Of a stretch of 64,000 nt of DNA, positions 59,535-60,770 are shown piece after piece (position 1 is the stretch's first letter; each line of letters begins with the position of its first letter). Source of the stretch: Haloprofundus halophilus (GTDB taxonomy: Archaea > Halobacteriota > Halobacteria > Halobacteriales > Haloferacaceae); contig NZ_QQRR01000001.1 of assembly GCF_003439925.1 (NCBI RefSeq), forward strand, positions 620,001-684,000. The letters are read 5' to 3'. The notes beneath the pieces were generated by a model. That model was given only the letters and a program-made list of their open reading frames with translations. It was not told the DNA's origin and made no database searches. Position numbers and translations under genes: made by a program.

Positions 59535-60131
59535 TTAGAGGAAGAAAATCGTTGCAACCTCGAACAGTACATACCCGACAACACCGAGTATCAACAGAAG
59601 TTGGAGAACCGCCACAACGGCCTCGTCAGTACTCATCTCGTCCTCCTCGAAAGTAGTTGGTTTTTCAGTAGGGGTAGAATCTACAGGCTCCGTCTGAGAC
59701 ACGTTCATCGGGCCGACATACGTGTCGACTAAGTCAACGGCTCCCACCTCATCGATAAGGCGCGAGAGTGAATCGCCGTCTAACAACTTCACGTTCAAAT
59801 CGCCCGCCAATTCCTGTGCCTGACGAGTGAATCCACTCGTGGTGACAACTACGACGGTATCAGCATCCTGTTCTTGGTGTCGGAGACTGCTGTACTGCTG
59901 GATGTCGCGTGACCCAACGTTGTTCCCCTCGTCGTACCGTTTGGCCTGAATAACCTGCTTCTCCCGGAATGGGGTGGACCTGGTGGCGATTACGTCGATT
60001 CCTTTGTCGACGGATTGTTGAGAAGCTTCAGTTTCCCAGCCGCGGCGGCTCCACAACTCTGCGATGAACAACTCAAACTCGTACGGTTCGAGACTACGGA
60101 GTCGTTCGTGATGTGCGGTGGTGACAGCCAT
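59535..60131 (-). CDS. Mrr-type restriction endonuclease with C-terminal membrane helix
   Basis: A 198-aa protein. Residues 10-130 form an Mrr-like PD-(D/E)xK nuclease domain: LEPYEFELFIAELWSRRGWE, Asp46 in DKGIDVIATR, Gln62-x-Lys64 in QVIQAKRYDE, and VVVVTTSGFTRQAQELA. After a Pro/Thr linker there is one hydrophobic segment (VLQLLLILGVVGYVLFEVAT, ~174-196), so the nuclease is probably tethered to the membrane. Mrr nucleases usually cut modified DNA. The ATG overlaps the stop of the HTH gene by one base. Base composition is more AT-rich than the region around. Confidence 0.85.
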   Translation of the reverse strand: MAVTTAHHERLRSLEPYEFELFIAELWSRRGWETEASQQSVDKGIDVIATRSTPFREKQVIQAKRYDEGNNVGSRDIQQYSSLRHQEQDADTVVVVTTSGFTRQAQELAGDLNVKLLDGDSLSRLIDEVGAVDLVDTYVGPMNVSQTEPVDSTPTEKPTTFEEDEMSTDEAVVAVLQLLLILGVVGYVLFEVATIFFL

Positions 60132-60487
60132 CAGCCGCGGAACTTGTTGACGAGGCTCTTGGTTTTCTTCGAGAGGACTTTGAGTCCTTCGACGCCGTCG
60201 CGGATAGCTTGGTCGAGGTCCGCGTCGAAGTCCTCCCCGTTGGACCAGTTGGGTGCTTGGTTGAACGTCCAGTCGTTGTCGAGGTCTGCATAGGGGTCGA
60301 AGCCGAGGTCATGGTTTAGCTGTTCGATTTCGGCGTGCATGGCGTCGACGCTGTCGAACCGGTTGAGTATGTTGCTGACGTAGGAGGGTGAACAGTCGAC
60401 GCGGTCAGCGATTTTTGTCTGAGAGAGACGTGGGTTGTTGTAGGCGGTGATGAGAATCTTGCGTTGAAGCTCGGTTTTTCGGGCCAT
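60131..60487 (-). CDS. HTH protein paired with the Mrr-type nuclease
   Basis: A 118-aa protein. LQRKILITAYNNPRLSQTKI and ADRVDCSPSYVSNILNRF form a winged-HTH near residues 8-45. The C-terminal half (HDLGFDPYADLDNDWTFNQA, LKVLSKKTKSLVNKFRG) is not recognised. It is the first gene of a two-gene unit and could be its repressor or a DNA-binding partner. The promoter region at 60500-60530 is strikingly AT-rich (gtatacattcaatac). Low-GC codons support recent arrival. Confidence 0.8.
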   Translation of the reverse strand: MARKTELQRKILITAYNNPRLSQTKIADRVDCSPSYVSNILNRFDSVDAMHAEIEQLNHDLGFDPYADLDNDWTFNQAPNWSNGEDFDADLDQAIRDGVEGLKVLSKKTKSLVNKFRG

Positions 60488-60635: not shown

Positions 60636-60669
60636 GCGCCGGCCGGGACCGAGCAAACCGAAGGTTTGC
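60636..60669 (-). repeat. tRNA-Gly 3'-end copy and hairpin
   Basis: gcgccggccggga at 60636-60648 repeats the last 13 bases of the tRNA-Gly gene (60701-60713). It is followed by the hairpin GCAAACC-GAA-GGTTTGC at 60653-60669. Together they lie between the islet promoter and the tRNA, like a small attachment-site remnant. Confidence 0.55.
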
Positions 60670-60699
60670 GAGGGTCGGGCGGCGCGCGACCGAAGGGAG

Positions 60700-60770
60700 T
60701 GCGCCGGCCGGGATTTGAACCCGGGCCATGAGCTTGGAAGGCTCAGGTCCTACCACTAGACCACCGGCGC
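60700..60770 (-). tRNA. tRNA-Gly (TCC)
   Basis: A 71-nt cloverleaf on the minus strand. Acceptor GCGCCGG pairs with CCGGCGC, discriminator A; D arm GTGGTCTAGTGGTAGGAC; anticodon arm TGAGC-CTTCCAA-GCTCA gives TCC; T arm GCCCGGGTTCAAATCCCGGC. CCA is not encoded. Confidence 0.95.

Follow-up and report, generated by a model that had tools for sequence, protein, structure and literature searches.

Haloprofundus halophilus carries, beside a tRNA-Gly gene, a 1 kb pair of overlapping genes, one for an HTH protein and one for an Mrr-type PD-(D/E)XK nuclease that ends in a predicted membrane tail, and the joint evidence makes it probable that this pair is a mobile two-subunit membrane-tethered endonuclease module, mainly for defence. 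A preliminary description of the locus, made from the letters of the window alone (the window being the whole stretch of 64,000 nucleotides that was analysed), had proposed a compact defence unit that would cut foreign DNA on its entry at the membrane and be regulated or guided by the HTH protein; the comparative evidence supports a compact, mobile nuclease unit at a tRNA gene, tethered by a predicted tail, and leaves cutting at entry and regulation or guidance by the HTH protein as conjecture.

The gene pair and its surroundings

The features of the locus are collected in Table 1. The one-base overlap and the position next to a tRNA gene were both described correctly at the outset, and the two genes are indeed richer in AT than their surroundings: with a GC content of 0.53 and 0.56, against 0.61-0.76 in all other called genes, they are the most AT-rich called genes of the window. 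The genes on the window flanks of the pair are metabolic, namely CDGSH/Fer4, ferritin-like, HTTM and FAD oxidoreductase genes; among them we found neither a methyltransferase nor a specificity subunit, in agreement with the earlier reading, nor the ZorA/ZorB membrane motor genes. A dense defence island around the pair was not seen in the window, which retains neither integrase nor viral genes, and an NCBIfam search gave no match for the pair proteins.

Table 1. Features of the gene pair and the adjoining tRNA gene, in window coordinates.
Feature	Position	Strand	Basis or remark
HTH gene, 118 aa	60131-60487	-	ORF call and Pfam
Mrr-type PD-(D/E)XK nuclease gene, 198 aa	59535-60131	-	ORF call and Pfam
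One-base stop/start overlap of HTH and nuclease genes (TGATG; context ..CTGATGG..)	60131	-	
Nuclease domain, residues 11-127, with E20, D42, D46, Q62 and K64	59751-60101	-	Pfam, alignment, AlphaFold2
C-terminal membrane tail (predicted), residues 165-198: motif EMSTDEAVVAVLQLL and hydrophobic helix	59538-59639	-	Hydropathy, AlphaFold, motif conservation, tail tests
tRNA-Gly(TCC), integration hotspot	60699-60770	-	About 210 bp upstream of HTH start
13-bp copy of tRNA 3' end (GCGCCGGCCGGGA), possible att remnant	60636-60648	.	Other copy 60701-60713

An HTH profile search of 513 genomes from six families returned four pairs, so that the pair is rare, and these four are distributed over two families: besides the window, they are found in G452, a genome of another genus in the same family, in Halobacteriales archaeon QS_6_64_34, and in Halomicroarcula sp. 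SYNS111, which belongs to another family. Conservation therefore extends to the unit as a whole: all four genomes keep the gene order and the one-base overlap (TGATG or TAATG); all four pairs are also AT-rich, with a GC content of 0.45-0.54 against 0.60-0.66 in their surroundings. Solo Mrr proteins of about 200 aa from other genomes were considered as further pairs and rejected, except for three that proved to be parts of three-gene operons.

Between the window and G452, strong purifying selection acts on the nuclease (Mrr pN 0.20, pS 0.77) as well as on the HTH gene (pN 0.17, pS 0.71), and this selection indicates that the pair is not a product of chance, as does the fact that it recurs with its one-base overlap in three further genomes. 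It is very improbable that we are looking at passenger DNA with no current function that has hitch-hiked to a tRNA hotspot: an atypical GC content, a sporadic distribution and absence from the four congeneric genomes searched would suit such DNA, but the frames are intact, the active site is invariant, selection is strong and the overlap is conserved across two families.

The nuclease and its predicted membrane tail

The nuclease matches Mrr_cat (PF04471) over residues 11-126 with an E-value of 2.8e-28; the score is 98.8 bits against a curated cutoff of 21, and the entire profile is covered (1-115/115). The PD-(D/E)XK-type site (D, Q-x-K) is intact and the fold is that of a restriction nuclease. 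Asp46, Gln62 and Lys64, which had been named as catalytic residues with the right numbering, are invariant across 30 homologues, as are Glu20 and Asp42, so that the catalytic site is conserved across homologues. In the AlphaFold2 model the core is confident (mean pLDDT 87, most core residues above 90), and Foldseek matches of this fold are mainly to nuclease domains of modification-dependent restriction enzymes: MspJI (2e-7), AF1548 and AspBHI (1e-5). A PDB sequence search with the nuclease or HTH alignment gave no match. In PADLOC the Mrr domain is similar to the candidate PDC-S02 (2.5e-17) and to ZorD of Zorya (8e-14).

Transmembrane (TM) segments were called by Kyte-Doolittle hydropathy (window 19, threshold 1.6), with the AlphaFold helix as additional evidence for the nuclease; genes outside the window are our own ORF calls. 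Hydropathy places the sole TM segment of the nuclease at its extreme C-terminus (residues 166-198), and the AlphaFold2 model has one helix there, residues 168-197, in accordance with the single terminal membrane helix first proposed. This helix is not peculiar to the window: a juxtamembrane motif, E-M-(S/G)-T-x-E-A, followed by a terminal hydrophobic helix, is predicted on the nucleases of all four pairs. Among the closest haloarchaeal Mrr proteins, 29 in number, TM helices are moreover predicted in 20, compared with 32% for the genes of surrounding loci, which suggests that membrane attachment is common in this haloarchaeal branch of 'type IV' nucleases. No description of TM helices in this branch was found in the open-access literature, a scope that leaves novelty unproven.

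The HTH protein and its family

The first gene gives Pfam matches to HTH_24/MarR/HTH_23 and has an N-terminal, three-helix HTH domain (helices 6-17, 23-30 and 34-43). Over this domain it shares 40-54% identity with 19 relatives of a haloarchaeal HTH-TM family, most of them solo proteins of about 130 aa; a C-terminal TM helix is predicted in all 19 that were examined. These solo proteins carry no nuclease and, in several genera, have housekeeping genes as neighbours. The paired HTH lacks such a tail, which is found on its nuclease partner instead, and a basic C-terminal helix (87-117) occupies the place that the tail has in the solo relatives. When the window is compared with G452, the C-terminal half of the protein proves no less conserved than its HTH.

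An HTH protein of genome G449 joins the two types: its C-terminal half is as in the paired HTH, and it continues into '..AMSTGEMVVALGRFALVLLVV', which is the motif of the pair nucleases. The gene lies beside putative pleolipovirus-like genes of a putative provirus (the whole stretch being L115:1986-8180), which look like those for a membrane protein (4 TM, 130 aa), a spike (595 aa) and an ATPase and have no Pfam match. Separately, a solo HTH-TM gene was observed at a tRNA-Gly(TCC) gene (L064:6614-7158), beside the FAD oxidoreductase gene also known from the window but on the opposite side of the tRNA.

Membrane-bound HTH regulators are known from Sulfolobus, where ArnR and ArnR1 combine an HTH with TM domains at the C-terminus (PMC6396743). 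They resemble the HTH-TM family in being archaeal and in joining an HTH to a C-terminal membrane segment, and the solo proteins of about 130 aa beside housekeeping genes could be read in the same way; the pair would then be a regulator of this kind with an accessory nuclease acting, for instance, in DNA processing or element maintenance. ArnR differs, however, in having HAMP and sensor domains, two TM segments and no nuclease (PMC6396743), and the paired HTH has no TM segment and is overlapped in four of four cases by a nuclease with an intact catalytic site. This nuclease is furthermore exchangeable for an HNH domain (see below), and a regulator needs no nuclease at all; we therefore consider a transcription regulator improbable.

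Other arrangements of the same parts

Other ARRANGEMENTS of the HTH, membrane and nuclease parts occur in three-gene operons, in an HNH fusion and on a plasmid of Haloterrigena turkmenica. In G193, G324 and G351, all of one family, the parts are spread over three genes that overlap or lie close together (L122:2868-3644, L124:3127-3911 and L126:2940-3718): one for an HTH of 61-62 aa, one for an Mrr of about 150 aa in which no TM segment is predicted, and one for a peptide of about 53 aa that has a single TM segment and ends in VPIPLI or similar; these HTH proteins match the HTH family profile with E-values of 2.5e-7 to 3e-8. We found no earlier description of such operons in the open-access literature. 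An HTH of the three-gene type was also observed on a plasmid-sized contig of Haloquadratum walsbyi (L133:1254-1478), with no adjacent Mrr or TM partner.

Halomarina halobia (L069:5863-6771) has the same HTH family in a one-chain HTH-TM-TM-HNH fusion. On the H. turkmenica plasmid NC_013748 (L058:8405-13923) a gene for an Mrr-TM protein precedes one for an HTH-TM protein; the adjacent KAP NTPase gene has a PADLOC match to PifA (1.9e-23), and these three genes are possibly a membrane defence cluster. In the Mrr tree the pair, three-gene and H. turkmenica sequences fall on one side together with two others, a grouping whose support of 86/84 is under the strict threshold. The pairs form no single resolved clade that excludes all other Mrr; a single origin would be allowed by this tree, and it is unproven.

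The recurrence of a DNA binder, a cutter and a membrane tail in differing arrangements indicates a real module. Since the tail is found on the HTH or on the nuclease, and a three-gene form and an HNH fusion also exist, there is strong support for a unit that would consist of a DNA binder, a membrane tail and an exchangeable nuclease.

The same evidence bears on the role of the HTH protein. A small HTH gene in first place, an overlapped nuclease gene, mobile contexts and a tRNA hotspot are also what a toxin-antitoxin-like or controller/nuclease pair would display, in which the nuclease would be neutralised or repressed by the HTH protein, and the system would cause abortive infection or serve a mobile element as its addiction module. 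Nevertheless, this HTH is fused to TM and HNH parts in one chain and is mostly found in solo HTH-TM proteins without a nuclease, so that targeting or anchoring fits better than an antitoxin; in addition, a search of the regions upstream of the pairs gave no palindrome or operator that they have in common. An antitoxin or controller is for us an unlikely reading of the HTH protein. On the basis of the HTH-TM-HNH fusion, the shared tails and the three-gene version, we favour the view that it would be a structural DNA-binding or targeting partner rather than a mere regulator; the strongest argument for a working partner is that the same HTH occurs in one chain with a second nuclease fold.

Relationship of the membrane tails

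The tails on the two kinds of protein were compared through profiles. Against the profile of the solo-HTH tails the tail of the window nuclease scores 20.3 bits and the TM peptide of G193 19.9 bits, and the G449 HTH tail scores 18.7 bits against the profile of the four nuclease tails. The highest score of an unrelated natural TM segment in these tests is 5.8 bits, the sole other natural segment above this value against the solo-HTH tails being the G193 peptide again, via a second locus; for the G449 tail, the best of 488 other TM segments has 5.4 bits and the best of 200 shuffles of the tail itself 9.9. In an earlier tail test, shuffles of the nuclease tails had been used as control.

The link between the tails runs via the window tail, G449 and G193, and the nuclease tails of the other three pairs had no score against the solo-HTH profile. 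Support for placing the tails of all pairs in one profile with those of the solo HTH proteins is thus only partial, and homology of nuclease tails and HTH tails, as judged from these profile scores, is likely but carried by some members only.

The tRNA-Gly hotspot and the mobile context of the pair

The tRNA-Gly is an integration hotspot in the genus, where congeneric species have other, variable cargo. G003 keeps both flanks with different genes in the gap, and G001 has an insert of about 15 kb with a tRNA 3' fragment at its left end; a tyrosine integrase lies beside the tRNA in G001 (Pfam Phage_integrase 1.3e-15) and in G004. The tRNA segment that is duplicated in the window is also found, within a longer tRNA fragment, in G001, G002, G004 and G452. 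In the last of these the pair is at the same tRNA-Gly(TCC), with the longer fragment between pair and tRNA, and this locus and that of the window also have in common tRNA-Arg, tatA, peroxiredoxin-like, HD-type and FAD oxidoreductase genes. None of the four congeneric genomes searched has an ortholog of the pair, whose history at the hotspot may be either one ancestral entry followed by repeated losses or several arrivals. At the same hotspot, a congeneric genome has a 361-aa putative PD-(D/E)XK nuclease with no Pfam match (L079:4754-5839).

The remaining two pairs are in different contexts. That of QS_6_64_34 is flanked by housekeeping genes, and that of SYNS111 belongs to an element of low GC, in which a split integrase, a gene resembling that of NrS-1 polymerase and a trypsin-like gene are also present; the last is next to the pair and matches the PADLOC defence candidate PDC-S45. 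A duplication of the tRNA-Ser 3' end was tried as a boundary of this element and rejected, its copy being on the wrong side. Searches of viral contigs with nuclease, HTH or three-gene HTH queries gave no relative; phage records contain just distant bacterial Mrr domains and no relative of the G449 HTH, and in plasmid records Mrr domains are many and the HTH is found solely in H. turkmenica NC_013748.

With a modest chance, the module is a selfish barrier of a mobile element, shutting out competing viruses or plasmids by superinfection exclusion in the interest of the element that brought it to the tRNA. The integrase-bearing, low-GC SYNS111 element with its NrS-1 polymerase-like gene, the HTH-tail gene of G449 beside putative pleolipovirus-like membrane and spike genes, and the cargo at the tRNA that varies among congeneric genomes all point in this direction. 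On the other hand, purifying selection relative to G452 acts on both genes although the window has kept neither integrase nor viral genes, and no copy was found in viral contigs. A selfish barrier differs from a defence module of the host in its beneficiary, and the biochemistry is the same.

Proposed function and comparison with known systems

In the defence module that we prefer, the C-terminal tail would hold the nuclease in the membrane, with the catalytic domain facing the cytoplasm, and the HTH protein would bind DNA, and probably the nuclease too, delivering or recognising the substrate. Tethering would keep the nuclease off the nucleoid, and DNA that reaches the membrane, be it from a virus, from a plasmid or transferred, would be cut; modified DNA would possibly be preferred, as with MspJI, AspBHI and the Mrr of Haloferax volcanii. 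From the comparisons above we infer the membrane location, the contact between HTH and nuclease, and the substrate, and we only infer an antiviral function and cutting at DNA entry.

MspJI and AspBHI share the nuclease domain fold of the pair nuclease. In these enzymes a modification-reading domain is in the same chain as the nuclease, and to our knowledge they have no TM tail. A cognate methyltransferase is absent beside the pair nuclease, as in a type IV (modification-dependent) restriction enzyme. The Mrr of H. volcanii (HVO_0682) is reported to be responsible for type IV restriction of GATC-methylated plasmids (PMC7776575, PMC6471742); by that description, and not by sequence, it is likened to the pair as a haloarchaeal Mrr-family nuclease acting on incoming DNA, but it is described there as a single gene, with no mention of an HTH partner or membrane tail. 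PDC-S02 and ZorD align to the pair nuclease over the Mrr domain only, and the pair differs from Zorya in the absence of the ZorA/B membrane motor and the SWI2/SNF2 helicase.

An analogue in organisation, and a precedent for the proposed mechanism, is SNIPE, reported from bacteria in 2026, in which a nuclease anchored in the membrane and provided with a DNA-binding domain cuts phage DNA as it is injected (PMC13190303); removal of its anchor is toxic, and tethering has been shown to prevent self-damage (PMC13190303). Like SNIPE, the pair would unite a membrane anchor (here predicted), a DNA-binding part and a nuclease. There is, however, no sequence relation between them: SNIPE has its N-terminal TM segment, DUF4041 and GIY-YIG in a single chain, whereas the pair consists of two genes, an HTH and a C-terminally tailed nuclease that is of the Mrr/PD-(D/E)XK type and not GIY-YIG, and neither pair protein has a Pfam match to DUF4041 at E<=1.

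We tentatively suggest that the pair may represent an undescribed archaeal defence module of three exchangeable parts, namely a small HTH DNA binder, a single-pass membrane tail and an Mrr or HNH nuclease, which would recognise and cut invading DNA at the cytoplasmic membrane and would be an independent PD-(D/E)XK counterpart of SNIPE; this more specific proposal we hold with somewhat less than even confidence. If the pair is SNIPE-like, archaea would have evolved entry-stage nuclease defence independently, out of a common restriction fold and in a form where the nuclease is exchangeable and the DNA-binding subunit is separate.
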